Shown here: positions 848-62,546 of the stretch, one piece after another
Layout of the letters: every line of letters starts with the position of its first letter
How positions within the stretch are numbered: position 1 is the stretch's first letter
Assembly (NCBI GenBank): GCA_029204225.1
Contig: CM055107.1
Span: 48,658,550-48,722,549 of the forward strand
From: Diphasiastrum complanatum
Lineage: Eukaryota > Streptophyta > Lycopodiopsida > Lycopodiales > Lycopodiaceae
Length of the DNA stretch: 64,000 bases
Direction: 5' to 3'
Position numbers and translations under genes: made by a program
Notes under the pieces: generated by a model
Told to the model about the DNA's origin: nothing
Databases searched by the model: none
Seen by the model: the letters and a program-made list of their open reading frames with translations, nothing else

Positions 848-1702
848 CTAACAATGTATCATATCTAACAAATTTATACAAACAAATAATGTCGGTGTTC
901 TATGCACATTTGCAATTGAAAAAAAATCAACAAATACATTCAAAGAAATAAACCAACTTAATCGGACATTTTTGGACCTAGTACTTATTTTCATAGAATT
1001 CTTCACATCATTAAAGAGCTTGCATCGAAATGATTCTAAAACAATGTTCTCAGAAGTAATCCATTCATCACTATCCAACCTTGGAAGTGGAAAAGCCTCA
1101 AGGTTTCCAAATCTTCCATGCGTATCTGGAATGTAAACTGATTCATAAAAATAGATTCCACTGTCGGCAAGTTCTTTTGAAAATCGGCCTTTGTACTGCA
1201 ATTTTTCTATATCTGAATGTATGACATCCAATATACCTGCAAGTGATTGTGTGGGCTCCCATTCCTTTAAATTTGATGGATATAAATCTGCATGATAAAA
1301 TAGAGATGAGTTTCCAAATAGATATCCAAATTCAGTATGCTAAATAAAAATAATGGCATAAAATAATAGAGTTGAATTTAGCTGCATAAAAATAAAACCG
1401 CAACAATTGCATCTTTTATGATCATTTGATTCACGGATCGGAATGCATATAAACATGTTGAACTAACATCTCTGAAATGGATTTCCACCTAGCGATGCTC
1501 TAAAGTCAAAAATCTTAGCTTTCCAGTAGGACCTGAAACATAACTTGGATCGTTTTCTCTTTCTAAATGGTCCTTTTGATGATGGATGCATTAATACCCA
1601 TGTGTTTTTGACGTATTTTTTTGGTATCCAATATCCTGCTTTGTCTTTCTCATTGTGAAGAATGACAGAATCTATTCTGGATCTCGGTCTCCTTGATGCC
1701 AT
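848..1702 (-). CDS. Unidentified two-exon gene
   Basis: An ATG at 1702 (minus strand) opens a basic exon (MASRRPRSRIDSV...). An AG|GTGG donor would end it at 1489. A CATGCAG acceptor starts a second exon at 1287, and the split codon (G+AT) keeps the frame open through to a stop at 848. This predicts about 217 residues with a 201-base intron. The first exon is Lys/Arg-rich (RKRKRSK near residue 50); the second is acidic and aromatic (SGIYFYESVYIPDTHGRFG). The last ~45 residues may be read-through into a further intron. A CA/CT microsatellite lies directly upstream of the ATG. I do not recognise the family. The phase-compatible splice sites are the main support; function is unknown and it could be a fragment of a larger gene. 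Confidence 0.45.
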
Positions 1703-1712
1703 GTTTTCGATC

Positions 1713-1716
<4 letters not shown>

Positions 1717-1793
<77 letters not shown>
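1717..1793. repeat. Compound (TC)n(CA)n microsatellite
   Basis: TC tract at about 1717-1752 passing straight into a CA tract at 1752-1793. It lies just upstream of the ATG of the minus-strand gene at 848-1702. Confidence 0.97.
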
Positions 1794-1795
<2 letters not shown>

Positions 1796-2177
1796 TCAAA
1801 CTTTGCCGCTAATTGTAACTATGCAAGATTCTTGCGATCACAATATCCAACCAATGTTGTTACTACTATAAACTAGTTTGTGATTGTGGTCTAGTTTCTA
1901 AGCATTCCGGGTTAGTAATTTAACTTGAAAAAGTTGATTCGGGGCAGCATTGTACTCTACGGGCAGCACAAGCCAACCAATCATATGTGTAATAGCTGCC
2001 CGACGTCAATTTAAAAAATTCAAAAATTACGAGCCAATTTGCTAGTCCCGATAAGCTACGTTACGTAGATTTCATTTTTGGGTCTTTTGATTGGTCCAAG
2101 TGAAAGCATAAATTAGAGAAAAAAATAAAAGTATTTTTTCAGAAGGCCCTTTTGTACTCAAGAACTCCTGTAATGTT

Positions 2178-2865
2178 CAAAATCATACTTGTACATTTTG
2201 CCTTTTGACTTCAAATGATAGCCACACATAAAGTGATGACTCTAGTCTTGATAACCACCATCTCTCACAACTGGTTCTGAATCAACTTCATATTTTAGGC
2301 TTGTATCTCCTTTGCCTCCCATCTCCATCTCCATCCCCTTTTATTGTATGCAGCTGCAATCCTTATTGTTGTTTAACTTTCATTTTGACTCTACTGCATC
2401 CCCATGATTATGGGACTATAAAATTTCCATTTGACCTGTGGGGCATAGACTCCATTAAATGAGCATAACATTTTTTGTGCAAAACAAAAAACAAAATCAA
2501 AAAATCAATAGTATAGTTGATGCAATTTTTGAATTATTTATTTGGCGCCATTTCAATCGTCGCATGTCCTGATAATCAGTATGAGCCATAATTTTTTGAA
2601 AATTAAAAAGTGATCCTCTTCTCTTGTTCCCATTCACTATGGCTTTCACCATTTTCGTGCAATATTATCGTCATCATCCTCCTGCCACTATCAAGATTAC
2701 TGGCCCTATATTGCCGATATACCTACTGCGCAAGCAGGAGGGCACATCTACGTGCAAAGACTGTGATTGTGGTTGGACTTGGCCACTCGCAAACATCATT
2801 GCTATAAGGTAAGCGTACTATCAGTGAGGAATGTAAGAGGTTTCACGGCATTTCATTACCATCCC
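2178..2865 (+). repeat. Expansin upstream region, duplicated at 18.1 kb
   Basis: Segments 2178-2222 and about 2700-2863 recur, in the same order and orientation, at 18090-18133 and 18145-18306. Roughly 480 bases are missing between them in the second copy. The second block carries a splice-donor-like AAG|GTAAGC at about 2808, so it might be a 5' untranslated exon or promoter-proximal part of the expansin gene. That role is inference. The rest of 1800-2960 shows no coding sequence I can support. Confidence 0.7.
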
Positions 2866-3716
2866 TGATGCATTTCTTATTCGGTTTATTTAGAACTTAA
2901 CCTTCGATATAGGTGACGCGGTTCTGTGGCAGTGTCCCTGTGTATCTTTTTCTGACAGGACAATGGATCGTTTCATGGCACTACCAGCTTCATTGGCGAC
3001 TATGTTAATTCTAAGCTATTGCCAGGATTCGTAAGCACGATATTCATCTGAACCATCTTGGAGGCACTGGAATGAGGCACATGCTACTTTCTATGGAGGC
3101 AGCGACGCAACTGGCACAATGGGTAAGTCACTCGCTTTACCTCTGCAAGTAGGGCATACATTGTATCACAGCTACAGTACTTTGAACATTAAATTGGTTA
3201 ATGACACTCTGCCAGTCATACTTCCTCTTGCTATGATTAGATGGTGCATGCGGATATGGCAACCTCTACAGCCAGGGTTATGGTACAAATACAGCAGCAC
3301 TCAACACCGTACTATTCAACAACGGCGCAGCTTGAGGAGGATGCTACGAAATCAAGTGTTGGAACGATACCCAGTGGTGCAACCCTGGAAATCCATCTGT
3401 GTTTGTTACTGCTACAAACTTATGCCCTCCAAACGACTTACTTTCGAATGACGATGGAGGTTGGTGCAACCTTCCCAGAGAGCACTTTGATATGTCACAG
3501 CCGGCGTTCTCTCAAATCGCTTTTTGGCGTGCAGGCATTGTCCCTGTTCTCTATTGAAAGTAGCAGCTTATAGACATTGGTCGGTCTAGCCTATCTAGAT
3601 ATACAGTGCGAGCTTCCGAATGTTGCATATTTCATTTGACTTTACTGACGTTTGTCATAAGCTATTACTATAATTCCAGTCAAGCTACAATTAAATTACC
3701 GCTCAACAATTATCGT

Positions 3717-4106
3717 TGTTGGTGTCAAGCAAAACACAGGTGTGTTTGTTGACGTCAACAGTCTGCCTCCCCCTCCATTTCCTACGTGGCGATTAGGGCA
3801 CTCATTTCTTGGCATGTAGGCACTCCTTCTTTATAGGAAAAGAAGGAGGCACGTAGAGAATTCTATAATCATCCAAACACCAGAAGCTTTTGCACTGTCA
3901 TTATTTTTACATTCTACATGAGTATTTGTTTCAGCTACGTTTCTGTTTCTTGTTTCTTGGTTCTCTTTTGCAATTGCATAGTTCCATGGATATAAGGTAG
4001 GAAATATTAGCAGTCTTTATTGCTCTGTCTCTCTCTGCCTGCGCTCTCTTAGTTTCCATGCGCTCTCTTAGTTTCCAGTAGCTGCTCTTTTCTACATAAT
4101 CCAACA
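3717..4106 (+). repeat. 5' LTR of TRIM-like element
   Basis: 390 bp, begins TGTTGGTGTCAAGC and ends TACATAATCCAACA. It carries CTTTATAGGA and CTCTCTTAG motifs and a small internal duplication of GCGCTCTCTTAGTTTCCA. It differs from the 3' LTR by only a modest number of substitutions and short indels, suggesting fairly recent insertion. Confidence 0.93.
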
Positions 4107-4150
4107 AAGGTTATGGGCTCACACACTCAGAGCCACAGGTAGCACCGGCT

Positions 4151-4597
4151 ATGCAGGTTTTCCTCGAGGATGTTCTTTCACATGAATCTGTAGCGATGCA
4201 CTTTCCGGAGTCTTCTTTCTTTCACTCCTCTCAAGCTCCTCTCTTACTATGGCTCCTACTTTCTTGGATACTCTTGCTTATCTCTCCATCTACATTGCAA
4301 GCAACGGCTCTCAACCAGCTCCATGTTAGCAGGGCCACCATTGCAGCAGCAGAAGTATGGAAGGAGCAGGAAGAAATATTCGAAGCAAAGCCAGATCTCC
4401 ACCTTGAAAAGAACCTACAGCTGGTGAAAATGTCAGGAGGATGTCTGGCTATGGAAGACAATCTTTTGAGCCTCCGGGTACAATTAGGTCAGAAATACAA
4501 TGGGATGAAGCTCTCACAAATTCCTATGCTCAGTTTGCCACCACGTTTGGAAGCTTCAAAGTTGTTCTTCAAGAAGAAGTCATGCCACTTTAAGTGA
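4151..4597 (+). CDS. Internal reading frame of TRIM-like element, unknown
   Basis: An ATG-initiated open frame of 148 codons fills most of the interior. The conceptual protein has a strongly hydrophobic stretch at about residues 31-50 (LLLWLLLSWILLLI) followed by an amphipathic Glu/Lys-rich segment (VWKEQEEIFEAKPDLHLEK). It resembles no retroelement protein I know. TRIMs often carry captured host sequence, so it may be a transduplicated gene fragment or a chance open frame. There is no start-context evidence for translation. Confidence 0.3.
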   Translation: MQVFLEDVLSHESVAMHFPESSFFHSSQAPLLLWLLLSWILLLISPSTLQATALNQLHVSRATIAAAEVWKEQEEIFEAKPDLHLEKNLQLVKMSGGCLAMEDNLLSLRVQLGQKYNGMKLSQIPMLSLPPRLEASKLFFKKKSCHFK

Positions 4598-4639
4598 ATT
4601 AATAGCTTCATGTAGATGCTAAAAATCAATGTAATTCAC

Positions 4640-10186: not shown

Positions 10187-11020
10187 ATGGGATCTATTGG
10201 TGAATTCTTCTTGGAGTCTAGTGAGAGGCTTAACCCTACAAATTACTTAATTTGGAAGGTCAAAATGGAGTCACTTTTGGTACTCCAAGACCTTTTGACT
10301 ATTTTTTTGTGAGGAGGAGGAACCTCAAGGTGGACAAGAGTTGATGGAATCTAAGAAGAGAGCTAGATTTGCACTAAATTCCATAAAAATGAATGTAAGT
10401 CATGATCTTCTTAAAGAGGTTGTAAATTACACCTCGACCAAAGAAGCTTGGGACTCTATAAAAGCTATATATGAGTCCAGTAATACCTCAAGAGTTCTTA
10501 TGCTAGGAAATCATGTTCTTCAAAGCATGAGAAGAGGTGATAAGAGTGCACAAGAATATGTGCTTAGGATCAAATCACTTAACAAAGAGCTTCTTCAATA
10601 GGTGACAAGATCCAAGATAAAAAAAAACTAGTACAAGTCATTTCTTAATGGACTAGGAAATGACAACTTCCAAATTTTTACAATCCAAGATGACTTCTTT
10701 GCATTGACAAAATCAATAGTGTCTTTCTGGCCAAGGAGTGTAGAGTGCACCATGTCAACAATAGGATGGGTTCTCTATCCTTGCATGACGGTGATAAGAA
10801 GCTCAATCACTCTAGCAAATGAAAATGGAAAGTCAAAGGATCCAACAATAACCAAGTGAAGGATCAAGCAAAGAGTGAAGTAACACAATCAAGTTTGAAG
10901 TCAAAGCATCAAAAAGACAAATCCAAGCTCAAGTGTTTCTTTTTCTGAAAAGAAGGGGCATTTGACATCTACATCCACATCAACAAGCAAACGCAACTCA
11001 AATGACACTTGGTGAATAGT
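10187..11020 (+). pseudogene. Ty1/copia gag remnant
   Basis: Starts at an ATG (10187) with ESSERLNPTNYLIWKVKMES, the plant copia gag (UBN2-type) N-terminus, and reaches a stop near 10310. It resumes in another frame at 10341-10601 with ALNSIKMNVSHDLLKEV, TKEAWDSIKAIYESSNTSR and AQEYVLRIKSLNKELLQ. Further on, CFFFxKEGH at ~10935 is a ruined zinc knuckle (CFYCxxxGH expected). It parallels the better copy at 60.3 kb motif for motif. No protease follows. Multiple stops and frameshifts make it non-functional. Confidence 0.9.
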
Positions 11021-18450: not shown

Positions 18451-19065
18451 TTTATGTAAAAAAATGTAAAAATAAAGTTAACTTGACAAAATATTATAAT
18501 TGAAGTAAAAACATCCCATTAACTCTAATTGATTTTTCAGAAAACAATTTTAATTATCATATTATTGTAACACTTTTCAAAAATTTGAACAATAAACACA
18601 ACTTCTTAAATTTATGCAAATTGTTTTACTCAATATTTATAAGATCTATGCTACTTACTAGTCACAAAACAAAAAAAAATCATGTAACTTGAATCATAAC
18701 AACCAAAAATCAACATACTTAAATATTAACTTCAATATCCTTTGATTTCCACTTTGAGTCTTCTGTGTTGTCTTCAGGTTTTACTTCTATACCTGTCACA
18801 ACATCCCATAACTCGTTGGCGATTAGCAAGGTCTTTATCTTAAATTTTCACAAATGATAATTGGATCCATTCAGCTTGTCTGCAATAAGACCAGCTTTAC
18901 TTTGACAATACATCTGGAACTTAGTTTGTCAATTGTATCGATGACGCTAAGATGTAGTAATACCAACAATCAATTCTCTGATACTGAAACGATGAAAGGA
19001 ACCGAAGAATATGATATCAATTTAGAGCTTTTGCTATGATATCGAAATAGTATTAGGCCTTGAAA

Positions 19066-19780
19066 CAGAATCAACGCTCTAATACCATGTCGGAAATAGG
19101 ATAGATAATGTAATGCGGGAACTTCCTACTTCCAATGCATGACTACGCCTATCAAAAAATTAAACAAAGCAGTAGTGACAAAAATCACGTTCAATCTTTA
19201 GCAACTACCTTTGAAATTGGTAGATACTAAGTGATTACGTAGCCAAATATAAAGTATTGAATTCTCAAACAATTTCTATCAATTAAAAAAGCAATACAGA
19301 GATGCATGCATTCTAACATATACTGAATGCAATAAGAAGATAGTATTGATTTAGAAAAACAAAATCAGATGCTAATGAGTGCAAAACAGTAGCGGATAGA
19401 AACCGTGCAGTCTAAGTTGTCTCTTAGTAACTGAGAATAAGTCTGATGATAGGCAGCTATGCTGATAAACAGTAGCGCAATAGCAACTCCAAAATAAATC
19501 CCTAAAAGGCTGAGCTAGAATGCTCAACAGAGTTTAAGCTTGAAAGCTTGATAGAGAGCTAACAACAATACTTTCTGATTGTGAATGATGTGCTTGATAA
19601 GAGCGCAGGACACGTTGTGTAATAACACTCAACTCCTTCACAATTCACAATGTTGATGCATCGCTTCCGAACTTGAAAAGAGATGTATGAACAACTGATT
19701 TATACTAAGTAATTAGGTCATCAAATGTGAGAGGATTAAAACCGATTAGTCGATTATTAAGAAGGAGAATAATCCAACAG
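19066..19780 (-). repeat. Reverse-oriented LTR with Met-tRNA primer site
   Basis: Read on the minus strand, an LTR-like block with ends TGTTGG (19780) and CCGACA (19089) is followed at once by TGGTATTAGAGC (19088 downward). That is one mismatch from the initiator-Met-tRNA primer site TGGTATCAGAGC. The retroelement interior would lie to the left (below 19066), but no coding sequence is recognised there between 18450 and 19066. The right-hand boundary is inferred from the inverted TGT...ACA ends. Confidence 0.55.
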
Positions 19781-19918
19781 AAGAGATTTGAGAGGTTCTG
19801 CATTTTTGTGATTTCTTCTTGAGTTCATTGGTTGACATTCAAGAGAGTGTTTTGTGCATTGGAATAGGTTGAAAGAAGAAGATCGGGTCATTGCAACATC
19901 GCTACAGGTGGTGGATTG

Positions 19919-21571
19919 ATGTTGGAAGTCAATGATAGGCTTACCTCAATCAACTATTATACCTGGAAGGTGAGGATGGAGTCCTTATTGGAGATGAATG
20001 AGTTGATGAAGATTGGTGCAGGTGTGGAGGAGAGACCTCAACCACCTCAAGATCAAGTGAGGTATAACAAGAGAGCAAAGAATGCTCTACACATGATTAA
20101 GATGAATGTTAGCAATGAACTTCTCAAGGAGATTGGTAAGTGCACATCATCTTTGGAGGCTTGGGAAGCTTTGTGAATCCAAGTCTACATCAAAGGTGCT
20201 TAATCTTAGGAGGCAAATCTTTTAAAGTTTTCAAAAGAAGGAAGAGAGTACTCATGCTTTTGTTTTGAGAGTTAAAGCATTCAATGATGAGTTAGCATGT
20301 ATTGATGAAAGCGTTAAGGAGGTAGAACTTGTTCAAGTTATACTCAATGGCTTGTTGGATGAGTTAGAAATAGTAAGCTCAACCATGATTGTAGTTTACA
20401 GTTATGTACTGTTTTAGTTTGGTAGGTTTTAGTTAAAAAGCCAGCTCGGGGGCTTGTCTCGGGCCAATAACGGGAGTTTACCTGTATATAGCCTAAAATG
20501 TCACGTAGAGGCCAATAGTGAATTTCATGCATTTATTAGGTCCATGTCACATGGCGTCCCCATGCAAAGGGGACCTTTACTTGTATATGTATTAGTCTCT
20601 TTGTAATAAAGATGCTTTTGCTTTGTGAGCTCTTTTCTTGATGTGAGCTCCCCCATCACTCTGTTACCTGTGGATGCTGTTTATGGTTTTGATGGTTGGC
20701 AAATAGTCAGTGATTGCATCTCTAATCTGCACTCTCCACTAGATCAAAATTTCCACATAGAATGTTAACTGGATGATCATGCTAATCTTGTTCAAAGTTT
20801 TACTATTCAAAAGACTTTGCCAAGTATCGTGGATTTGCAAGAGTTATTGGTGAATGAGGAGTATAGGTTTCAATCAAGAGGAGGTGGATCTACATCAACA
20901 TCTCAATATGACGAGGAGGCTATGTTCATCAAAGGCAAGTTCAAGGGAAAAGGCAAAGGAAAGTCGTCTAAAGGGCAAGGTCAAGATGAGACTTCCTTTT
21001 TTGGCAAAAAAAAAAGATAAGTCTAAGTTGAGATGCTTTTATTGTGGAATCAAAGGGCATTTTGCAAATGAATGTTTGAAGAAGCAAAGAGATGAAGGTA
21101 GCAAGCAAATCGACTTTACTACTAATGATGATGATCTAGGTGGTGGTGATTCTCTTTTGATGTGTTCCTCAAGTCCAATATCAAGTGAAGGTGACAAAGA
21201 TTCATGGTGGATTGATAGTGGAGCTAGTTCACACATGACTAGTCACAAGGAGTTCTTTACTTTTTTGGTCACTAGAAATTCACATGGCCAATGGTGGTGA
21301 GTGTGTGACTGAAGGTATTGGTTCAATTTCTATTTGTCTCTCTACTAATACGAAAACAATACTTGATGGTGTTCCTTACATTCCTTCACTTTCAAAGAAT
21401 TTGCTAAGTGTTGGTCAAATGATAGAGAAAGGATACATGGCAAAGTTTGGTGGTGATGCTTGTTTCATTACAAAGGAGGAAATCTTGGTTGCTAGGGGCA
21501 ATAAACAAGGTAGACTTTTCAAGCTTGATGCTTTTGTTATGGCTAACAAAAAGGACGAAATGGAAAAGTAG
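19919..21571 (+). pseudogene. Ty1/copia gag-protease (frames broken, with insertion)
   Basis: N-terminal gag motifs start at an ATG (19919): RLTSINYYTWKVRMESLLEM, ALHMIKMNVSNELLKEIGKC, SLEAWEAL. After a frame shift near 20174 they continue with VLRVKAFNDELACIDES and VELVQVILNGLLDELE. A ~412 bp insertion (20370-20781) interrupts the gene before NLVQSF. The rest has a basic Gly/Lys linker, a zinc knuckle CFYCGIKGHFANEC (~21035-21075), the protease motif WWIDSGASSHMTS (~21210-21245) and LPSLSKNLLSVGQMIEKG. Protease Asp is intact. An in-frame stop at 21569 separates it from the unfamiliar region downstream. Confidence 0.92.
20370..20781 (+). mobile_element. ~412 bp insertion in copia gag, solo-LTR-like
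   Basis: Comparison with the gag at 60.7 kb (LRSEFDNLVQSYAI) shows that foreign sequence splits ...LLDELE from NLVQSF. The insert has CTGTATATAGCC (TATA-like, ~20480), TTTGTAATAAAGATGC (poly(A)-signal-like, ~20600) and an end zone CTGCACTCTCCACTAGATC resembling the LTR-like block at 14.69 kb. This suggests a solo LTR. I could not define a target duplication. Confidence 0.6.
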
Positions 21572-23075
21572 ATTGGTCTCAACTTTCCAAAGTTCCCTTT
21601 TAGCATCAATAAGATTGGTGGATCTTATGCAAAGTGTAACAAGCTTCATCATGCTACATCTAGGTCGAGATCTAATATGCTTCTTGGAAATGTTCATCTT
21701 TGTGCTAATTTGGATGGTTATGAGGATAATGATGGTTCTTCAATGGTTCTTCATGGCAAGTGCAAGCATGCAAAAGGTAAGGAAAGAGCTAACTTCATCA
21801 ATGGAGGTGGTGAAGGTTCTTCCTTGGAAAAGATTGTTGTTAATGATTTCTTTGATCATATGGAAAAAGATGTTGCTAGGTCCATGCATGAAGGAGGTGG
21901 TTCTTCTATATTCTTTTTTGATGAGTCCAAGAAAGTCAATTTTGCAGCAAGTGGAGTCACATGTCTTCATAAAAAGAGTAGATCAAATGGTTCTATCAAG
22001 AGACTTGGTGAGGGAGATAGTCACAAGTCAAGAAGAAGAGAAGTATGTGAGGAGTTCAAAGTAGGATGTACTTTGAATGATGTCATTGTGAATGATAATG
22101 AGGAAAAATCATTATCATATGAGTCATGACCTAAAACATTGATTAGAAGTTCTTGTTTGAAAAAAGAGAGTACTTCAATAATCCTTATGTTGAAGGTGCT
22201 GATCATTTTTTTCATGGCTTCTAATGTTTTTGAGGATTCTGCTTCTTATGATGCAATCATTAAGAGAGAAGGCTTATGAAGGAAAGAGAAATGGAAGATT
22301 GGTTCTTGAGAAGATCCAAGGCATGGGTCTCACATCTCTTCATCAACTCAAAGGATTCTATGATTTAGAATTGATCACTCATGATTGAGATGGCAGAAAG
22401 TTGATTGGAGAAGACTACATGAAGCAAATCGAGAGGCAATTTCTTTAAGGCAAGGGAGATCTCATTGGTGAGCTTATTGAGAGTTTTTATGTACTCAAGA
22501 AGGCTGGGTTTATTAAGTTTGATACTCATCTTCACCTACTCTACTTCATGCTGGATGGAAAGTTTGGAATCTATCTTTTGATTTATGATGGTGCCACCGA
22601 TGACATTGCTTTCACTAACCTTTGTGAAAGATCGAGATCAAGCATTGATGAGATCTTGTTAAATCTAGATCATATGTTTGAGAGGTAGTATTTCCAGAGG
22701 TTCAGGTCTGAAGATATTCAGATCTTTGATATCTTTGATGATCAAGAGAAAGATAAGCAAGTGGAAGCGACTCACCTTGCTTTACTCACATGTTTTGGAG
22801 AATCTTCTTGTGTAGATGATGCTATGCAAGTGGATATTGGTTCTCATGGTTTTCATGCTGGAATATCAAGTAATGGATCTGAAAAAAAAAGTTTGTTCAA
22901 TGACTTTGATGTTCAAGAGGAAGATCAAGAGGTTGGTCTCAAAGGGCGTCAACAACACAAAAGGAAAGGTGGCAATTTGGAGCTAGTCAAGAGCATCAAA
23001 GGAAGTCATTTGGCAAAGATGTTATGGATCTATTTTTGTAGGTGTATGAAGACTCAATTAAGGTCAAAGGAGTAG
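21572..23075 (+). pseudogene. Unfamiliar reading frame fused to copia gag-protease
   Basis: After the stop at 21569 the same frame stays open to 22129 (Lys/Ser/Gly-rich: KHAKGKERANFINGGGEG, DESKKVNFAASG). It is readable to ~22262, and after one frameshift it continues as one frame to a stop at 23075 with only three internal stops (near 22388, 22449 and 22688). The second half looks folded rather than random: RLVLEKIQGMGLTSLHQLKG, GELIESFYVLKKAGFIKFD, FMLDGKFGIYLLIYDGATDD, SIDEILLNLDHMFER. No integrase, RT or RNase H motif is present where they belong. Roughly 490 codons in total. I recognise no family. It may be an accessory protein of a non-autonomous copia lineage or a captured host gene. 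Confidence 0.55.
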
Positions 23076-23630
23076 AAAGGAAGTGTTGTTCATGTTTACT
23101 TTACTTCTTCTATCTCATGTTTGAGCAATTTTATGTGAATGTGTGCAAATTGTCAAGATATGGACAATCTAGCTACATTGTCTTGCAATATCTTATTGTT
23201 GGATTTGTACTAGAATTATGGGCTGGTTTTGCTAATGAAAATAAAGCTATTGGAGGTTCATTATATCACTCATCCATGCCTAAGTTCTCATGTGTTGAGC
23301 TACTTGGTGCCAATGTTTGGAGATTGTCAATTTTTGGTGCATTCATGGTCATTTTCTTGTGTCAAGTAGATCTTGAAGATGGACTAGTGCAACCTACTTG
23401 GTTTATGGAGTCCAATGGTGCTGGATTGCATCATTGATGTACTCACCTACTCATGGATCTCCAAGGTTTGATGGTTTCTTGTGGCAAGATGGAGATGGAG
23501 GCTCATTCATGGAGTTTTATGGTGGAGAAATATCAAGAAAGGACAAAGTTGGAGGACACAAGCAAGCAAATGTCATCACTCACATTTATTGTTTGGTTGC
23601 TGTAATTTTTTAGATATTTCAAAGTTTGAA
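23076..23630 (+). other. 3' part of the copia-derived element, unassigned
   Basis: Contains an open frame (23042-23437) rich in Cys, Leu and Tyr without known motifs, and purine-rich words near 23490 (GATGGAGATGGAGG). It may be 3' untranslated sequence or LTR of the preceding element; I cannot find its borders. Confidence 0.3.
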
Positions 23631-23639
23631 ACATGGAGG

Positions 23640-23745
23640 AATCATTTCATTTACATCCCAGATGGAAATACTGTGTTAGAGACAAGACCTGAGGCACAAA
23701 AATGATCCAAATGCTAAAGGGCTCTGATACCACTGATGAGAACCA
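23640..23745. mobile_element. CACTA scrap next to a reverse primer-binding site
   Basis: IPDGNTVLETRPEAQK (+ strand, ~23655-23702) resembles the CACTA N-terminal motif ENIVLETIAEA at 15.69 kb. Next, GGGCTCTGATACCA (~23719-23732) is the exact reverse complement of a Met-tRNA primer site (TGGTATCAGAGCCC), with CTGATGAGAACC beyond it. This implies a minus-strand copia LTR starting at about 23735 and running right. Its other end is not resolved. Confidence 0.55.
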
Positions 23746-32804: not shown

Positions 32805-33240
32805 GATGCATGTTGATGATTTGAATTTGAAAGCAAATAATCAAAGATTTGCTAAATGTAGTGAAAACAGATCTATGTAATTAGTTTGATATCACAGACT
32901 TTACCTTATTTACTACTGCTTGCAAGTTGAAATATGGCTAAAGGAGCAAGGTATTGGACTTACGTAGACTACGCGTGTCAGTAAATTGCTCAATCTGTTC
33001 CATATGGAGGCATGCAAGCAAATGAATACACCTATCAAGGTTCATGTTAAATTGCCTATGTTGGATTTTACATCCCTTGTGGATATCACTTTGTACATCA
33101 ATTAGTAGTACACATTAGCTTTTTTTTCGGTTGGTGTGTCAACTCATGATGTCTTCTTCTCAAGATTATTGAAAGACAACAAAGTAAAATTTGAGGTACG
33201 TCAAGAATACATCTCAACAGTTCATTGTATGTTAGTGAAA
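32805..33240 (+). pseudogene. Decayed copia RT/RNase H
   Basis: Frame-shifted but ordered motifs: HVDDLNLKANNQ (RT YVDD box), LLNLFHMEACKQMNTPIKVH and LVDITLYI (start of RNase H, normally TPI...LVDPTLYR). Many stops. The same decayed sequence occurs inverted at 39.6-40.6 kb. Confidence 0.8.
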
Positions 33241-33985
33241 ATAAGTAGCGCAAGTTAAACCACTATTATGGAACAGGGAAGCAACATGACTATCAAAGGT
33301 ATATGTTCCATGTAGGAAATGAGAATCTCATATTTTTTGATAGTAAGCATAACATAGTGGTGTGGCCCCTTTTAGAAGTTGAGAACAAGGTCCTCATCAA
33401 CACAACTCGGTGAAGCAATATGGTTGAGAAAAATCCCTAGGAAGAATAAGATTTAGCAAGAAAAAGATACAGAAAGAGACCACAATCTATAATCAGGTTC
33501 CAACTAGGACTCGATCTGCTAGACACCTATTTTTGTATCACCTTCTTTATGAGAAGACATTGACTACCAACTTCTGTATTATAAACGTCTAGTTTTCGAG
33601 GTTTTCATAGTTACCAAGGCCATGTTGTTGCAACACGTGTCATGTAAATACTCACCCATGTACAAGTTTTCCCAAAAATATGTACATGTCTTTCTAGGTT
33701 TGAATATAACACTTCCAATTCTTCATTTTGGTTACTCTCAAGCTCTAAATGATTTATATGGGTGCCACTCTTAAGAGATTGTAGTTTATCATAGGCCTAT
33801 TTATATATTATGAAAATGAGTGCCATCATAATTTTTCAAGGATGCAATTTGGATTGCTGATGTATGGGATGATATTATGGTCACTTTCAGAAAGCAACAC
33901 CAGTTCACTCCCAAGGAAAATAAATTTAGAAACTGCACATAAAAAACACTAGCACCAAATACTTTGATGAATCAGATGTGGTAGC
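32955..33985 (+). repeat. ~1.03 kb inverted repeat, left arm
   Basis: Matches the reverse complement of about 39583-40610 along its whole length with indels. Shared words include TTGCTCAAT(C/A)TGTTCCATAT, AGATTATTGAAAGACAACAAAG and TGGGATGATATTATGGTCAC. It contains copia RNase H and 3' sequence. Confidence 0.88.
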
Positions 33986-39582: not shown

Positions 39583-40610
39583 ATACATTTGATTGATCAA
39601 ATTATTTGGTGCCAGTGTTTTTTGTGTAGTTTAAAAAATTTATTTTCCTTAGGCTACTTTCTCAAAGTGACCATAATATCATCCCAAACATCAGCAATCC
39701 AAATTGCATCCTTGAGAAATAATGATGGCACTCATTTTCATAATAGGCCTATGATAAAATACAATCTCTAAAGAGTGGCACACATATAAATTATTCAGAG
39801 CTTGAGAGTAACCAAAATGAAGAAGTGGAAGTGTTATATTCAAGCCTATATACATATTTTGGGACAATTTGTTGCAACAACATGGCCTTGGTAATTATGA
39901 AAGCCTCCAAAACTAGACATTTCTAATACAAAAGTTTGAAGTCAATGTCTTCTCATAAAGAAGGCGATACAAAAATTCAATGTGCTAAGTTTATAGATAA
40001 TACACCTAGGTGTCTAGAAATCGAGTCCTATTTTGAACCTGATTATAAATTGTGGTCTCTTTGTCTATCTCGTTCTTGCTAAATCTTATTCTCTCCTAAG
40101 ATTTTTCCCAACGATATTGCTTTACCGAGTTGTGTTGATGAGCGCCTTGTTCTCAACTTCTAAAATGGGCTACACAACCATGTTATGCTTACTATTAGAA
40201 AATATGAGATTCTCATTTCCTTCATGGAACGTATAACTAGTAGTTAACCTTTGACCGTCATGTTGCTTCCTAGTCCACAAAATTGTTTTTACTTGGGCTA
40301 CTTATTTTCACTAACATACAATGAAACGTTGAGATTTACTATTGACATACCTCAAAATTCACTTTGTTGTCTTTCAATAATCTTGAGAAGAAGACACTCA
40401 CCAACCGAAAAAGCTAATGTGTGGTCTTGTTATTGTTCTGTAGGTCAAATTGCCTACTATTTGATGTACAAAGTGATATCCACAAGGGACGTACAATCAA
40501 ACACAGACAATTTATCACAAACCTCGATAGGTATATTCGTTTGCTTGCATGCCTCCATATGGAACATATTGAGCAATTTATTGACATGCATAGTCTATGT
40601 AAGTAATGGA
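39583..40610 (-). repeat. ~1.03 kb inverted repeat, right arm (decayed copia)
   Basis: Reverse complement of 32955-33985 with moderate divergence and several indels, one of ~30 bases near 40435. On the minus strand it shows the same RNase H start (HMEAC then TPI) from ~40580 downward. Separation of the arms is about 5.6 kb. Confidence 0.88.
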
Positions 40611-41317: not shown

Positions 41318-41560
<243 letters not shown>

Positions 41561-41704
41561 GGAGATGAGTGTGTGCGTGCATGCATTAGTTTAAGAGAGA
41601 GAAAAAAAGAGAGTCTATTTTTCATTTCGAATTAGTTTAAGATTTGTGAGAAAGAGAGAGAGTGTGTGTGTATGTTTTGCATTTTGCATTAGTTTAAGAT
41701 TTTT

Positions 41705-41835
<131 letters not shown>

Positions 41836-41873
41836 AAGAGAGAGATAAAGAATAAGTGTGTTTAATTTAAGAT

Positions 41874-43300
41874 TTAAGAAGTGTACAGGGTTACATGTCC
41901 TTCACCTTTGCAATTTCCGCACAAGGGTACATATCCAATCTGTTTCTTTGGTTCAGAGCATTCATTGGAATAATGTCCAGGTGTTCCACAATTAAAATAG
42001 GTAGGTATCTGCTCTGTTCTTTGGACACTGTTCTTCTGCTGATTGGGTATATACTTCTGAACCAGAATAAATTTCTTCATAGGAGGTCTGTATGAAGGAG
42101 AGACTGGTGTAGTAGTAATTCTCGGATTAGAAGCTTGTACTTCATATATAGTCTCACTAGGATCTACCTCCATTAAATAAACCAGTTCGTTGTTAGAATT
42201 TCCTTCCTCATAGGAAACTTGCATTTTAGCTTTACATTCCGAATAATGGTGACCTTCCTTATTGCACTTTCTACACCATGCATTTGACTTTCTTAATATA
42301 TTGGGATATTTTCCTTTATTCTTCGGTTGAAGAATATGAACTTTCAAATCCACAAATTTTCTTTCAAGTTTGGATACTTCCTTTTTCCATAAGGTCTACT
42401 ATTTTCGATCGCTCTTCTTTGGATCTTCCATTCTTTTTTGATCTTTTGTTCATGTCTTATGGCATTTTGAAGTTCTTCTTGGAGATTCATCTTCACTCAA
42501 ATTATCCGAATCCGAACCAGAACTTGATGATGAACTAGTCTCCGATCCTGGTCGTCTGAAGAATATTTATTCTCTTTCTTTTTAATAAGCTCTTTCCTTG
42601 ACCTTCGGCTTCTCCATATCCGAGAAGTCTCATAATTCTCTGCCGTAGCAATTACATGCTCAAGGCTTTCCATAGGTCCTTGCCTGCAATATCGATCTAT
42701 TCTTTTGGGTAATCCCCTCAAGAACCATTCGATCTTCATGGCTACTGGATATACTCCACTCAGTTGACCAATTAGTTTTTTTGACCCTTCGAGTATACTT
42801 CCTTAGAGATTCTTTCTCTTTTTGCCTGATTGAATTCAATTGGGCAAGTATTTGTGTTGAATAACCAATTTTTCTTAATTGCTTCACGAATTGGGTTTTT
42901 AAATCTCCCCAAGTTGTTAACAGATCTGATTCGATCTGGCTGTACCATCTTCTGGCTTCTTTTCTGAGAAGTCCGGTTAATATCCTTAGTTTGTCAGCAT
43001 TTAAACTTTCTCTATTGCTTGTTGCACTAGACTCAAACTGAGACACATAGCTATCTGCATCTTCTAAGGCTTTTCCATTAAGATAATCATACCGGATTTT
43101 AGAAGAAGACAATCCTGGAGCAACCATATCTTCTTCATCTCTGTCGTCCCGATCAAGGGGCGGATTGGGTGATTTTTCTTTTTCCAATTCACTTCCTGAT
43201 GTGGAAGACTCCTTGTAATCAAGTCTCCTTCTTCGAGTATCCCAGTTTAATTCTCATTCCTGTTCTCTGCACCTTCGTCTTTCTTCTATTTTCTTTCTTT
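41874..43300 (-). pseudogene. Ty3/gypsy gag
   Basis: Gag makes the particle shell and binds element RNA. On the minus strand, an Arg/Glu-rich N-terminus (RERQRKKIEERRRCREQE, ~43300) leads to GLSSSKIRYDYLNGKALEDA, then LRILTGLLRKEARRWYSQIE, TTWGDLKTQFVKQLRKIGY and RQKEKESLRKYTRRVKK, a Retrotrans_gag core (43187-42700). WFLRGLPKRIDRYCR follows, then zinc knuckles CRKCNKEGHHYSEC (~42270) and FNCGTPGHYSNEC (~41980) and a partial third, CGNCKGEGH, at the end. Frames shift at ~42750 and ~42400. No protease or pol follows; a GA microsatellite takes over at 41.83 kb. Truncated. Confidence 0.9.
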
Positions 43301-46071: not shown

Positions 46072-48262
46072 TAAAAGCCGAATGAGAAACACCACCACCA
46101 AAAAATTGGGCACTACAAGTATCAAATATCACACTAGGACAATGGGCCATGGGACCAAAATGGGCAAAACCTTCATACTTATGGAAGTACCTAAATGCAT
46201 AAGGGCCACCCAAAGATCAATTATCAAGAAGGACCAGAAAAATGTCAAAGACCATCTGAATTTAAGAGGATGGTGACAAAATGTGAAATACCGGGCATAA
46301 GACCTTGACTCATGTTTACAAATGGGACATTTCTATTGGATGAGAACATTGACCCACATGGGCCATGTACTTTGGTCATGTATGCCCATGTGGCCCTATC
46401 CACACTCTTCAATGCCATTTCAGAGTCCACATGGCACAAGGCCAAAAAGTCTTAATGAACCCTTGAAAATGAAATGTTGAATGGTCAAAGGATATGATGA
46501 AATGAAAAATTGAAAGGTTGGGCCGTCATCCGTTCAGAGATATACATGCATGGCCAGCCTCACGAAACGGAACCAGAACGAGAACCAGCTCTATTTTTTC
46601 ATATCATTATGCTTTCATGTTTGTTTTATTGCGTAGCCTTGCAGAGGTGCGATGGTGATATTCCTTCTTTACGTAATTTGTTGAGGGTGATGGAGACCAA
46701 CTTTTCTTTCATGAGAGCCGAAAGGATTGTGGAACTGATCGTTGTGTTTGAGAATTTCTTGAGTTGATCTATCAAAATCACTATCACGGAGCTAACACAT
46801 TTCAAAGATGGAGAGTGTGGTAGATTTCAATGTGTTCATGGAAAGATATGTAACTGAAAGCATCTCATTTACTCTGAGTAACGTTAGTATTGTTGAATAT
46901 CATGTTTCCGAGAGTATTGATCACCCAAGTACGTAAGAGCTTCAGGGGAATGGTACTTTGATTATGAGAACGATGGATTAACGGTTAAGTCTACTCCTGC
47001 TCAAGAGCTAATATGGGCAGAGTCTCAGAGCTCCAAATTTTGATTGACCAGCGTTGCTACATTAACTACTTTGATTAAGATTTGTGGAGGCTACATACTG
47101 ATCAATTGATGCAGATCATGATCACTGACGGACGGGATAGGGAGATAAATCCTAGCTGACAACGTGAGCATCCTCTGAACGTGCGTTGACTCACAAAAGT
47201 ATCATCATGTTGCTCTCTATCCTCCATGAAAGATTTGAGGCATTCCATTGCTACTGCTGCAGTTGAGAACTATTGTCGTTGACCATCCTCATATTACGAA
47301 TACCACTCAGTTTTCAGTCGAGTTTCAGTTTATGGTGCGATCATTTGAAGAGACCATTGTTTCAGTACCTACACGAGCATGATTGAGTTAAGCAGCACCT
47401 ATCGGGCCTAAGCAGACATCACTACTTTGATGTGTTATTGAGAGATTACCTTCAATCGATCTCTATGGGAGTGCTCACCGTGCATTTAAGCAGTTGTATT
47501 ATGAGTACTAGTCAGTACTGCTCTTACATCAGTTTTGAAGTATGGATTCTCAGTATACTATTATCTGTCTCTATATAGTGATGAGATAACTAATTTGATG
47601 ATGACTCCTATCAAAGCACTGCTCCATATGTGCAGTTTTGAGGATAGACTTTTCAATGATTCTGAGGAAGTTCTGCATGATGACTTGTACATATTCCTGC
47701 TAATCAAGTGCATTCCACAGACGTTTGAATACTGAATATCAAACATCGGTCTATGAGAGACAGAGAGCTTTATTATCAGGCTACTAAAATCAGTGAGGAA
47801 TCGCTATTAGCAATGGATATTCTGAGTGAGAATAATTCCAAATCCTGGGATTGATTTGAGCAAATGTTAACTCCATCACTGATATGGGGACCCATTGAGA
47901 ATGTACGTCTGATTATCGTGGAAGAGCCATCATTGAACTAGAGCTGTCATTGTTGTCTGCTATGGAGCAATCGAAGGATGTTGTCTCTGTTGCTTTGTCG
48001 ATTGAAACTTGCTAAACACATTTTGTAGAAGACTGATGAGGAAGCTGATATCAAGCTGTCCATGAACTGCATCAGCTCACTTTGGATCCTGCACGACTAT
48101 CAGTCATTCTAGCAACCAGTCTGCACTTAGGAGCAACACTTCTTTGTGTCTACAAGGTGAACTCCAGCAACACTACACACTCCCGGAAGCCTAACCTTTG
48201 CATGATTGGTCTCTGATTTCCTGCGGGCTGGAGCTGGAGGAGACGTGAGAAGAGAACCTCAC
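46072..48262 (+). repeat. Long direct repeat, copy 1
   Basis: 46072-46168 matches 52123-52221, and 46761-48262 matches 52252-53728 at high identity. The 592 bases between (46169-46760) are unique to copy 1. Shared sequence includes GATGGAGAGTGTGGTAGATT and, near the end, GGGCTGGAGCTGGAGGAGAC. It contains decayed open frames common to both copies (for example 47535-47735). It could be the LTR or the 5' half of a gypsy-like element. Confidence 0.9.
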
Positions 48263-48267
48263 TACTC

Positions 48268-50926
48268 ACTTTCTTTCTGAGAGGCCTAAGAGATGACATA
48301 CAACTTGTAGTATGTCAGAGTAGCACTCAGAAATGGAAGTCGTAAGTAAAGCTCTTGTAGTGGAGGATGCACAGATTGCCATCACACATGCATCAAACAT
48401 ATCTAGAGCTGGAACGGATGTGTGGGAGCATAGTACATTTAGAGGAAATCAAGTCCACAACAACCCCCGGCCATTACAAGAGAGAAGACCTCTAGCAGCA
48501 ATGCCAGAACCACAGCCACCACCCAGACTTTTAGAATTGATGCCACCTAATACTAGAAGGCAAGTTTCTGGCCCAGAAAAGGGATATGAGAGTACTAGAT
48601 CTAATTTTGGTCTAGATGACATGAAAGAGATGCTCAAAGGATACACGGATGTCATGAATGAGAATATGTCAACATTAGCTTCAGATGTGAACCTTTTCAA
48701 GCGACAACAGAATTTGTTAGGCCAAAGGAAACCATTTGACCAACCACTAGGTATACTATGTCGATTCTGCCAAGGAAACCACTTGAATAGAAACTATCCT
48801 AACACAGTTTGTGCTATTTGCAAAAAAGACTGGTCACCAGGAAGATAGATGTTGGGCTCGCAGAGAAGCCTTAGTGGCGCCTAATCTAAGACCAGGACCT
48901 ATGAATCATAGATCACAAGATGAAAGAGTAGTTGACACCCCCAGATTAGTCAGCTTTCTACACAGACCATCTATAATATGATCTCAAGACAAGGGAAAAG
49001 CTACAATGGAGGATGAATGGCCTCCAGTGAATCTGATAGAGATTGAGACAATGAGGTTTAGAAAGACAAAAGAAGAAGTACTAGATGTAACCAGAAGTAA
49101 GACACTGATGGATCTTTGAAGAAGGTAGTTGAAAAAAAGACAAGTGATGTGCTTGTCTTGCACTAGATGATAGATCCCTCAATGATACTAAATACACCCA
49201 TAGTCAACATCGACAAAACAGAGCCTGGAGAAGGGGAGAGATTGGAAGCTAGAAAGCCACCTAAGATAGTTCGAAAGAAGGAAAAGGCTGAAATTGTACC
49301 ACACAGAAATAGAAGCATAGTCAGATGGATTCGTGACATAGACCTCAGCCCTAGGATTGGATGAATTGAGATTAGAGATAGGCTTATGGCAGTTACTCCA
49401 ACTTTCACCCACAGTCCGCCGGAAGGTGAAGCAGATGATGAGGCCGATAAATTTGGGAATGGGGAGGTCAAGTACTATCCTTGGTGGATAGACTTCAGGG
49501 AGGGAGAATATCCGCCATCTAAGGCAGCACAATACCATCTCCATGAGAAGGGTCGCCTTGTTGTAGAGGATAAAAATTATGTGAGAAATTTCAACTAGTT
49601 TTGCTTTTTTGTTCATATCTGTATATTTGGCAATTGAGGCCAATTTTCATGTTAGACTTAGAGTTTGACCTCCCAAAGTTATATTAGTCTAAAAGCATTT
49701 GAATAAACACTTTTGGAAAATGTGGAAAAGTATAGTACATGAGGTTTGGTAGATTGATAGGAAAAGTGGACAACAACATAGTAGACCGATATTGTCCCAA
49801 AGTTGATGTCACTATAGATGGTTTAGTTATCAAAGAAGCTACAGTAGATGCAAGATTGGCGGTGAATATAGTAAGCCTAGAATTGGCAGACAGGCTTGGA
49901 ATAGACCCGGAGCCCACTTCATTGACTGCCTTGAAGTTGGCCAACAACTCTGTTGTCAAACCTGAAGGAGAAATGAGATCTGTCCCTATTACAATTGTTG
50001 GAAAGATTGTGAATGTGGACTTCTATGTCATGAGAATGCTGGCAGACTATAAGAGGTATTCTCTCCTATTAGGGAGGCCTTGGTTACGATTAAGTGACTG
50101 CACAGTAGACATTCCTGCAGGACTATTGATTTTTGGTAGAGGGAAGAGCCGAGTGGTAGTTGATGGATACCCCGAGACCCCTCAGTCAGAAAGAGCCCCT
50201 CTACCCTTTTCAAAATGGGAAGAAGTGTCTAATGATGATTCAGGAACTGATACAGATGATGATGAACACAATCGAACTGTACCTCATGACAAGGATAGCG
50301 AAAGCAGCTTGAACCATGCAGAGGTGCATGAAATAGTATGGATATGCCTTGATGATTATCTCCCCATAGTCAAATCCATGAATCTAGGCCCATCAAATTA
50401 TGAGAGTAGGGAGGATGCTAGATATACTGCATCTGATGTCTTTGATCATGAACTGTTTGGTATACAAGAATTATTTAAAGAAAGCCAAGTGGTGCCAGTG
50501 AAAATATTCCATTGGGATAATGAACTATCTGGATATGATTCAGACTGTGAGAAAACTATAGAGGCAAGGTACCCTCCTAGCCCAATTAGGTTGTACTCCC
50601 AATCAACCAATCGAAATGACAAATGAGGCATTGCATCTCCTAGAGCAAAAATGATTGTAGACAACAATAGTGAATCGTATGAGGTAGGAGAAATGTTCGA
50701 GACTGCAGAATCAAAACCTGCATTCTACTCTCATAATCTAGATGAACATAAAAACCTTCATAGTCATGGTCATCAAGGAAATTCAAATACAGATCTGAAT
50801 CTTTTACCTTCCTACCTTGAGTATGATCATTTTGATGATTTAGAAAAGAACATGGGAAGACAAACCAGTGCATATGATAGAATGGAACCAGATGACGAGT
50901 ACACTGACAACAAGATCGATAATGGG
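48268..50926 (+). pseudogene. Gypsy-like gag-protease without polymerase
   Basis: Starts with FFLRGLRDDIQLVVC (48.27 kb, end of a gag core) and SKALVVEDAQIAI. Two zinc knuckles follow at ~48.76-48.85 kb: CRFCQGNHLNRNY (last Cys lost) and CAICKK/TGHQEDRCW (one-base frameshift inside). A protease domain (49739-50200) reads VDVTIDGLVIKEATVDARLA, VNIVSLELADRLGID and YSLLLGRPWLR. The flap and GRPWLR motif are good, but the catalytic D-S/T-G triad reads DAR, so it should be inactive. An acidic tail runs to 50626 and on in another frame to 50926. No RT or integrase before the second long repeat. A ~145 bp repeat splits the frame at 49.6 kb. Confidence 0.85.
49597..49745 (+). repeat. ~145 bp dispersed repeat, copy 2
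   Basis: Reverse-complement match to 9484-9625. It begins CTAGTTTTGCT and ends AGTACATGAG, and interrupts the gag-protease frame between DKNYVRNFN and RFGRLIGKVDNN. Confidence 0.8.
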
Positions 50927-52122: not shown

Positions 52123-53730
52123 AAAAGCCGAATGAGAAACACCATCACCGGAAAATTGGGCACTACAAGTATCAAATATCACACTAGGACAATGGACCAC
52201 GGGACCAAAATGGGCAAAACGTGAGTTGATCTGTCAAAATCAGTCAAAACGTGAGTTGATCTGTCAAAATCAGTCGCAGAGCCAACACATATCAAAGATG
52301 GAGAGTGTGGTAGATTTCAATGTGTTCATGGAGAGATATGTAGCTGAAAGCATCTCATTTACTCTGAGTAACGTCAGTACTGTTAAATATCTTGTTTCCG
52401 AGAGTATTGATCACCCAAGTACGTAAGAGCTTCAGGGGAATGGTACTTTGATTATGAGAACGATGGATTAACGGTTAAGTCTACTCCTGCTCAAAAGCTG
52501 ATATGGGCAGAGGCTCAGAGCTCCAAATTTTGATTGACCAGCATTGTTGCATTGACTACTTTGATTAAGATTTGTGGAGGCTCCATACTGAGATTGATGC
52601 AGATCATGATCACTGACGGACGAGATAGGGAGATAAATCCTAGCTGACAACGTGAGCATCCTCTGAACGTGCGTTGACTCACAGAAGTATCATCATGTTG
52701 CTCGCTATCCTCAACGAAAGATTTGAGGCATTCCATCGCTACTGCTGCAGCTGAGAACTATCGTCATTGACCATCCTCATAGTGCGAATACCACTCAGTT
52801 TTCAATCGAGTTTCAGTTTATGGTGCGATCATTTGAAGAGGCCATTGTTTCAGTACCTACATGAGCATGATTGAGTTAAGCAGCACCTATCGGGCCTAAG
52901 CAGACATCACTACTTTCCTTCAATCGATCTCTATGGGAGTGCTCACCGTGCATTTAAGCAGTTGTATTATGAGTACTGGTCTGTACTGATCTTACATCAC
53001 GTTTGAAGTATGGATTCTCAGTATACTGTTATCTGTCTCTATATAGTGATGAGATAACTAATTTCATGATGACTCCTATCAAAGCACTGATCCTTATGTG
53101 CAGTTCTGAGTATAGACTTTTCAATGATTATGAGGAAGTTCTGCATGTTGACTTGTATGTATTCCTGCTAATTAAGTGCATTCCACAGATGTTTGAATAC
53201 TGAATATCAAACGTCGGTCTATGTGAGAGTGAGAGCTTTGTTATCAGGCTACTAAAACCAGTGAGGAATCGCTATTAGCAATGGATATTCTGAGTGTGAA
53301 TAATTCCAAATCCTAGGACTGAGTTGAGCAAATGTTAACTCCATCACTGATATGGGGACCCATTGAGAATGTATGTCTGATTATCGTTGAAGAGCCATCG
53401 TTGAACTAGAGCTGTCATTGATGTCTGCTATGGAGCAATCGAAGGATGTTGTCTCTGTTGCTTTGTCGATTGAAACTTGCTAAACACAATTTGTAGAAGA
53501 CTGATGAGGAAGCAGATATCAAGCTGTCCGTGAACTGCATGAGCTCACTTTGGATCCTGCACGACTATCAGTCATTCTGGCAACCAGTCTGCACTTAGGA
53601 GCAACACTTCTTGGTGTCTACAAGGTGAACTCCAGCAACACTACACACTCCCGAAAGCCTAACCTTTGCATGATTGGTCTCTGATTTCCTACGGGCTGGA
53701 GCTGGAGGAGACCTGAGAAGAGAACGTCAC
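52123..53730 (+). repeat. Long direct repeat, copy 2
   Basis: Matches copy 1 (46072-46168 and 46761-48262) but lacks its 592-base middle. Instead it has a local duplication of GTGAGTTGATCTGTCAAAAT at 52221/52252. Similarity ends at GAGAAGAGAACGTCAC (~53730), exactly where gag coding begins after copy 1. Confidence 0.9.
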
Positions 53731-59535: not shown

Positions 59536-60272
59536 TACCTAAGGTTACCATTCATTTTGATCCATTTAAGTGAAAACTTTTCATCAATCTTGAGCTTGTC
59601 AAGATCCATTTTCCTAGCTATCTTGTCTAACTTTGGATCAAAAGAGATTAACAGGGCATTGATTGGGTCTAACCTGGTACTGTACGGAATCAGGTGCTCA
59701 AACACGTGTGAGGAATATCCAATTTCAGATTGAGAGTTCTCTCTCATGCTTGATCTATTTATCTTGCCTGATAGCTTGTTTTGAAGCTATTTTTGTCTAG
59801 TTTTTGATGCAATCAGTTTCATTCCATTTGGTTGAGCCAATCAGAAGTTATAAGCTTTTGAAGAGGGTTAGGTAGGGAACCTAGACCTGGGTGGACACTT
59901 TTGGTTTGGTCAAGAGATTGCTTGTTAGATCTCTGTTCACAGTTGTATGGTTACCAATCTCATCTATAAGTGATTTAGACATTGTTTTGAGATTATAGCC
60001 GATTTGTTTCATGCAATATCAGTGAGTTTGAGTCAAATTTGGTTACTTAGTGTATTTCACACATGCTAAGAGTAAATGATCCTAACTTTGTCTATATTCC
60101 ATCATTTTATATGAAATAGATCTTGTTTTAAAGAGATTTGAGTAGCTAGTGAGAATCAATTCACAAATAGTTGCAAGATCTTTCATAAGAGCAGATAGTA
60201 CTTCATTATTGGATCCTATTGAGAGTGTGTAGCAACATTTATTGTTCATCATTTGAGTTTTCTTCACTTCAA

Positions 60273-61559: not shown

Positions 61560-61573
61560 ATCCAAATGAATAT

Positions 61574-62534: not shown

Positions 62535-62546
62535 GACAATTATGAT

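Follow-up and report, generated by a model that had tools for sequence, protein, structure and literature searches.

An intact Gag-protease frame with, probably, a decayed polymerase in its open tail in a copia-type retrotransposon family of Diphasiastrum complanatum

Semi-autonomous long terminal repeat (LTR) retrotransposons, which have an intact GAG or GAG-protease frame and no working reverse transcriptase (RT) or integrase (INT), have been described from gypsy elements of wheat. TR-GAG elements have GAG, or GAG and an aspartic protease (AP), as their only recognisable domains, and the maize element Bs1 carries segments of host genes. According to the excerpts of the literature on which we draw here, RLG_Sabrina_SA of wheat is a high-copy gypsy family with an intact GAG-protease frame and neither RT nor integrase; it supplies GAG itself, and its mobilisation is presumed to take place in trans (PMC9744471). 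RLG_Quinta, a gypsy family of the Triticeae derived from an autonomous family, combines GAG and a domain of unknown function in one open reading frame (ORF) without RT or INT; it is thought to be mobilised by RLG_Cereba, the partner being recognised by its primer binding site, polypurine tract and LTR ends (PMC11302176). Under the Inpactor rule, TR-GAG elements have GAG or GAG and AP as the only domains between their LTRs (PMC6022998). Among copia elements, the non-autonomous RLC_Angela of wheat has a decayed coding sequence riddled with frameshifts and stops, and continues to amplify through a partner (PMC9744471). Here we consider a locus of Diphasiastrum complanatum, lying in a 64,000-nt stretch of assembly GCA_029204225.1 (contig CM055107.1, 48,658,550-48,722,549, forward strand; hereafter the window), where a copia gag-protease is joined to a long and unfamiliar protein region. 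From searches of the 1.74 Gb genome for relatives, this locus is probably a decayed copy, without LTRs, of a copia-type LTR family that is non-autonomous and has amplified recently. The family is best read as semi-autonomous and TR-GAG-like, with a polymerase gene (pol) that has decayed in an open frame and with mobilisation in trans.

We call X the tail part that the first-pass annotation of the window had singled out (window 21572-23075), X1 and X2 its pieces in the window copy and Y the frame beyond X; L-numbers denote genomic copies, L019 being the intact copy of the family used as reference. A DNA search with X gave 40 scored matches among 5,686 first-look candidates, and 20 of the 40 were taken with their flanks; a protein search with X gave 86 among 14,964. 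Gag-protease and X are enclosed by direct-repeat LTRs in all 20 flanked copies, and the fusion, which the first-pass annotation proposed to follow into other genomic copies, is a property of a family and not of one locus. The intact element is 5,492 bp long, with LTRs of 654 bp that start with TGTGAGAGATTT and end with CTTCACA. The 5' LTR is followed by a tRNA-iMet-type primer binding site, TGGTATCAGAGC, which is exact as listed in 14 of the 20 copies and in the remaining six is shifted by LTR indels or differs by one base; the polypurine tract ahead of the 3' LTR, examined in L019 only, reads GAAGAGGGAG. Matching 5-bp target duplications are present in 17 of the 20. The two LTRs show no difference over 654 positions in ten copies, one difference in two more and 10 to 34 in the other eight. 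Two pairs of copies, L009/L011 and L012/L014, probably represent one insertion per pair, since the flanks within each are identical. A single frame of 1203 codons is found in 12 of the 20 flanked copies, and X is without a stop in 73 of the 86 scored protein matches (hand count). The family frame enters the 3' LTR, the first bases of which supply the stop codon.

In L019 the frame is made up of 437 residues of gag-protease, 500 of X and 266 of Y, giving a tail of 766 codons, about as long as a pol. Above the Pfam cut-offs it contains Retrotran_gag_2 (PF14223, 1.8e-22), the CCHC knuckle (PF00098) and Pol_BBD (PF22936, 2.4e-25), and nothing else. The copia order of gag, CCHC and DSG protease/Pol_BBD is seen in L019 and, in pieces, in the window, where Pfam places these domains as the first-pass annotation had done. 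Of the further copia order of INT, RT and RNase H, only an RT fossil of 125 residues was detected. Neither X nor Y of L019 had a match in Pfam, NCBIfam or PHROGs at E<=10, which disfavours a domain of phage type. Among PDB sequences there was no match for X of L019 and one row, of E 1.2, for Y, and scans of IMG/VR with X1, X2 and a copia RT gave no relative. For window X1 Pfam listed one row below threshold, SidF (E 0.036; 12.6 bits, where the cut-off is 27.1), and a search of PDB sequences brought up this molecule again at E 0.69; since neither recurs with the intact X, both rows are taken as chance. Two transmembrane-like stretches occur in the intact tail, at X 201-219 and Y 35-53. AlphaFold models had a mean predicted local distance difference test (pLDDT) score of 34.5 for X2 and 31.2 for X1 and were not used.

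The first-pass annotation had found no integrase, RT or RNase H in X and remarked that a replacement domain of this size would be new. Pfam names none of the three in the window copy even at E up to 10. The statement that there is no RT holds for function but fails for origin, X 246-370 being recognisable as copia RT without its catalytic motif; the corresponding window segment, 22314-22685, contains the three phrases that had been quoted as conserved protein, except the first few residues of the first. X 246-370 aligns in order with copia RTs of three families in this genome (scores 87, 72 and 78, reached by none of 1000 shuffles in any of the three comparisons; p values from 4e-7 to 1e-5). 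Against the same three RTs X 1-245 and X 371-500 are null, and in comparisons with RT reversed X, Y and gag-protease are not significant (smallest p 0.07). The aligned stretch starts in the motif-A region, takes in the YMEQ and YGLK blocks and ends just beyond the place of YVDD. YVDD itself is missing, its place reading IYDGDIGD in L019 and IYDGATDD in the window copy. All ten copies scored against copia RTs reach 64-90. A smaller run of L019 X against the two RTs of the window was mixed (26, 1 and 0 of 400 shuffles), and a PDB search with a window copia RT gave nothing at E<=0.001. On the evidence of alignment, 125 tail residues are shown to be copia RT lacking the YVDD motif, and this RT can be recognised only when intact copies are compared with RTs from the genome itself. 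What is left of the tail, namely X 1-245, X 371-500 and the 266 codons of Y, may be drifted integrase or RNase H or something foreign.

The family resembles RLG_Sabrina_SA in being a high-copy LTR family with a GAG-protease frame, no working RT or integrase and a putative mobilisation in trans, and RLG_Quinta in a GAG fused with an extra region and no RT or INT. RLG_Sabrina_SA differs in being gypsy and not copia, and the excerpt available describes for it no open tail of 766 codons with an RT fossil; RLG_Quinta is also gypsy, with RLG_Cereba as its partner and a DUF1 of unknown origin, whereas the tail seen here is partly RT-derived. With intact frames in 12 of 20 copies, the family has what characterises a semi-autonomous element, an intact GAG(-Pro) frame and no working RT or INT. 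It falls within the Inpactor definition of TR-GAG, with the reservation that an RT remnant below Pfam detection is present, and differs from TR-GAG elements in having a 766-codon tail that is open and in part derived from RT. RLC_Angela is likewise a copia family with decayed coding sequence and continued amplification, but in our family the decayed pol stays open. Maize Bs1 is likewise an LTR element with an unusual chimeric ORF (PMC13317346, in excerpt); it differs in that none of its kind of host gene segments was found in the family tail by family and PDB-sequence searches.

To assess selection, changes were assigned to tree branches by parsimony after bins of low identity had been masked, and the mutation spectrum in the data served for the neutral expectation. 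Three sets were counted: 19 loci that exclude the window copy, 20 rows that include it, and nine copies chosen by DNA alone, the window copy among them. On the shared branches of the 19 loci gag-protease has 36 nonsynonymous (N), 27 synonymous (S) and 0 stop changes, a synonymous share of 0.43 against 0.23 expected (p 4e-4). In the tail the counts are N111 S35, a share of 0.24 against 0.23 expected, and there are 0 stops in 146 changes against 7.6 expected (p 4e-4). Inclusion of the window copy brings the gag-protease counts to N54 S39 (p 4e-5) and those of the tail to N163 S47, a synonymous share of 0.22, with 0 stops against 10.9 expected (p 1.3e-5); the two regions differ with a Fisher p of 8e-4. 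In the nine copies chosen by DNA, tail stops number 0 of 139 on shared branches (7.2 expected, p 6e-4) and 14 of 277 on private ones (14.4 expected). The private branches of all 20 have 15 tail stops in 651 against 33.9 expected, a deficit due to the choice of 11 of these copies for their open frames, and shared and private tail stops of all 20 differ at a Fisher p of 0.029. Most of the signal in gag-protease is contributed by gag (N39 S33), and X 246-370 has N31 S10 on shared branches with no synonymous excess. Gag-protease is under purifying selection, the tail amino acids are not, and openness alone is kept in the tail. Purifying selection, which the first-pass annotation named as a sign of a lineage-specific accessory protein, is found in gag-protease but not in X, where nothing beyond freedom from stops is conserved.

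Size variants of the family have spread too. A gag-protease query gave 96 scored matches of 164,423 candidates, 54 of them with 99-100% identity (hand count), and the open frames in these 54 rows have 1203 codons in 18, 1145-1148 in 19, 1086-1090 in 14 and other lengths in three. The one tail read from the shortest common class, that of L060, is without 57 codons between two copies of CTTTGATGATCAAGAG and without 58 codons in Y as well; both deletions are in frame, the three aligned pieces are 95-99% identical to L019 and the RT-like core is unbroken. An in-frame gap of 174 bases (58 codons) in Y is found in L009, L012, L017 and L047, and to judge from its lengths the middle class would be without one of the two segments. 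No frame is longer than 1203 codons among the 54 rows, and there is accordingly no autonomous partner with the same gag among them.

The family would have originated from a copia element whose pol degenerated. It would supply Gag, and perhaps protease, in cis, with reverse transcription and integration provided in trans by a putative autonomous copia, and Gag would stay under selection as the tail drifted freely except for its open frame. Openness would probably be kept either because a stop would leave a 2-kb 3' untranslated region and so expose the RNA to decay, or because the element requires the tail as bulk; packaging is a further possible reason. Decay of pol within an open frame accounts jointly for the RT fossil, the lost Pfam similarity and the absence of stops. 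That the tail ORF is selected for openness alone, a dead pol acting as filler behind Gag-protease with its amino acids neutral and its stops purged, is a tentative proposal, possible rather than probable; such purging may, for example, protect the transcript from nonsense-mediated decay or preserve the size of RNA and particles.

A number of results weigh against pol decay and mobilisation in trans. Pfam does not report RVT_2 in the tail of intact L019, and no trace of INT or RNase H was detected in X 1-245, X 371-500 or Y, the smallest p being 0.044 for Y against one INT in 18 comparisons. A profile built from 18 copia RTs, two of the window and 16 taken as small slices of the genome, places X at the top of some 3000 shuffled or control sequences, with a weak 9.4 bits against 7.3 for the best shuffle. 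Single-family RT profiles rank X 1, 3 and 5 of about 1,830-1,860, with shuffles above X in two, and a two-sequence model from the window RTs ranks it 303, ranks which make the profile evidence weak when taken alone. Against the RT of the nearest gag relative (window 62535-63440), X was equalled in 4 of 1000 shuffles, and the window's own broken X2 is not significant against the window copia RTs (33 and 12 of 300 shuffles). Taken by itself, the protease part gives no sign of constraint (N15 S6). The tree counts rest on parsimony, masked bins and 20 similar copies, of which 11 were chosen for openness, and this alone lowers stop counts. A helper was not identified among the candidate families compared: two autonomous copia families with long open frames (B and C) are unlikely to act as one, having a gag-protease only 27-28% identical, and the 3' LTR of the nearest gag relative has in common with the family LTR the purine tract and a TGTGA start, and otherwise short matches (19 bases in the LTR). 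This relative, 45% identical in gag, is a copia element of the window at 60189-63440. In its family, to which L061 also belongs, about 64 of 131 scored rows have a frame of 1357 codons (hand count, one with TGA), and the RT scores are near-identical; the family is probably a very young autonomous burst.

Other explanations of the tail may be set against pol decay. The tail could be a functional, fast-evolving accessory protein, env-like or membrane-associated for example, that aids transposition, and such a protein would agree with the lack of shared stops in its frame and with the two transmembrane-like stretches; plant LTR elements are known to carry accessory ORFs, in some cases encoding transmembrane segments (PMC7264820, in excerpt). 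However hydrophobic runs would arise easily from T-rich DNA, part of the tail is an RT remnant, the 54 scored rows include the shorter size classes about as often as the full form, and L060 does without 57 and 58 codons of it. Together with a synonymous share that is at the neutral value with or without the window copy, this makes an accessory protein unlikely, and the idea of a new conserved domain is likewise weakened by the RT alignment and the missing constraint. It could also be supposed that the RT-like core has been retained for a function other than catalysis, such as RNA binding or forming a heterodimer with a helper RT, since it is unbroken in L060 and reaches its scores against copia RTs in ten of ten copies. 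The counts of N31 S10 for X 246-370, and a model of the window core that is unusable, count against this and we consider it improbable.

Capture of a host gene in the manner of Bs1 would fit the outline of a sense ORF of no known family fused to gag-protease without pol (PMC13317346, in excerpt), but 125 of the tail residues are RT, and no host gene was recognised for X or Y in Pfam, NCBIfam, PHROGs or PDB sequences, there being no match of L019 in the first three at E<=10 and no credible one in the last; we regard such an origin as very improbable. The idea that chance has placed noncoding or nested foreign DNA beside a gag-protease relic, which the first-pass annotation had itself named as fatal to its proposal, draws on the window copy alone, with its lack of LTRs, its several stops and its nested insert. 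It is refuted by the occurrence of the same fusion in 20 of 20 LTR-bounded copies and of 1203 open codons in 12 of them, and has practically no probability left.

The window copy itself comprises 19779-20362 and 20770-23656, which correspond to element positions 1138-4626 only in alignment to L019; it has no LTRs of its own and is truncated at both ends. All of its parts lie on the forward strand. The leader, from element position 1138, and N-terminal gag occupy 19779-20362 (91.4% identity to L019 element positions 1138-1731; Retrotran_gag_2 E 1.9e-7), with a stop in gag at 20174. Within gag follows a foreign insert of 407 bases (20363-20769, with no strand assigned), MITE-like (resembling a miniature inverted-repeat transposable element), outside the family and not in L019; 7-bp TGGATGA flanks it on both sides and its ends are GTTA...TAAC. 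The C-terminal gag, CCHC knuckle, protease with DSG and Pol_BBD domain, assigned by Pfam, lie at 20770-21571, and identity to L019 is 92.8% across 20770-23656. The frame is broken here: a gap of 17 bases relative to the family shifts it within the protease, which the first-pass annotation had taken to be intact. The first half of the tail (X 1-245), with no recognisable domain and in the intact frame one transmembrane-like stretch, X 201-219, extends over 21572-22313 and is followed by the RT fossil (X 246-370, motif A to just beyond the YVDD place, catalytic motif lost) at 22314-22685. X 371-500, also without a recognisable domain, lies at 22686-23075, and its counterpart holds the 57-codon segment that L060 is without. 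At 23076-23656 the family frame continues as part of Y, of 266 codons in L019 and here cut at element position 4626.

The open stretch past one stop and the frame-shifted part beyond it, as annotated, are confirmed, with 185 open codons directly after the stop at 21569-21571 and a second part that closes with a stop at 23075. This end is that of the window copy; the family frame goes on for about 266 codons, to the 3' LTR. An open run of at least 185 codons occurs in 0.05-0.15% of 2000 composition-matched random sequences per model, and in 7.2% of 500 sliding tiles of the transposon-rich window. X1 and X2 have the base pattern of known coding parts, G first and T third, and the codon score exceeds the 95% point of the window background for X2b only.

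Two near matches to X (98-99% identity) are on the window's own contig. In one of them, L003, the site of the 407-base gag insert is likewise occupied by an insertion; L003 is probably a later duplicate and not a separate insertion, because small gaps and the insertion place are common to it and the window copy. The stretch of C16 around the window, at about 47.7-50.2 Mb, contains 19 of 131 scored rows for the 60-kb copia RT (93-100%, window included, hand count) and 3 of 40 scored X matches, so that this region looks repeatedly duplicated as blocks. Antisense copia relics lie on both sides of the window copy, at 18740-19087 and 23657-23732. The minus strand carries a PBS-like (primer binding site-like) TGGTAT(C/T)AGAGC in each of them, at 19076 and at 23721, and an antisense gag fragment lies at 18740-18886 (26.5% identity, E 2.7e-4). 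A further copia gag relic of the same broad lineage is at 10199-10460, in two short pieces of 49 and 57% identity. Elsewhere in the window, inverted arms of nearly 1 kb each (32958-33894 and 39657-40604) are 88-96% complementary in pieces and about 5.8 kb apart, and direct repeats of nearly 1 kb (46784-47745 and 52274-53213, 94-95% identity) surround an ORF at 49736-50626 and probably belong to an LTR element. A tandem array with a spacing of mostly 8 bases is at 41330-41889, with a reverse-complement stretch of the same repeat at 1711-1793.

The family adds a copia example to the semi-autonomous families described from gypsy elements of wheat, and it indicates that a protein region of a mobile element that looks unfamiliar can be a worn vestige of the element's own polymerase. 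As a young family in several size classes, it offers a means of measuring whether a frame can persist when its protein does not, and it may show what Gag-only elements need from their helpers. If selection for openness alone were true, it would constitute a class of coding sequence in which the frame, and not the protein, is the selected trait.

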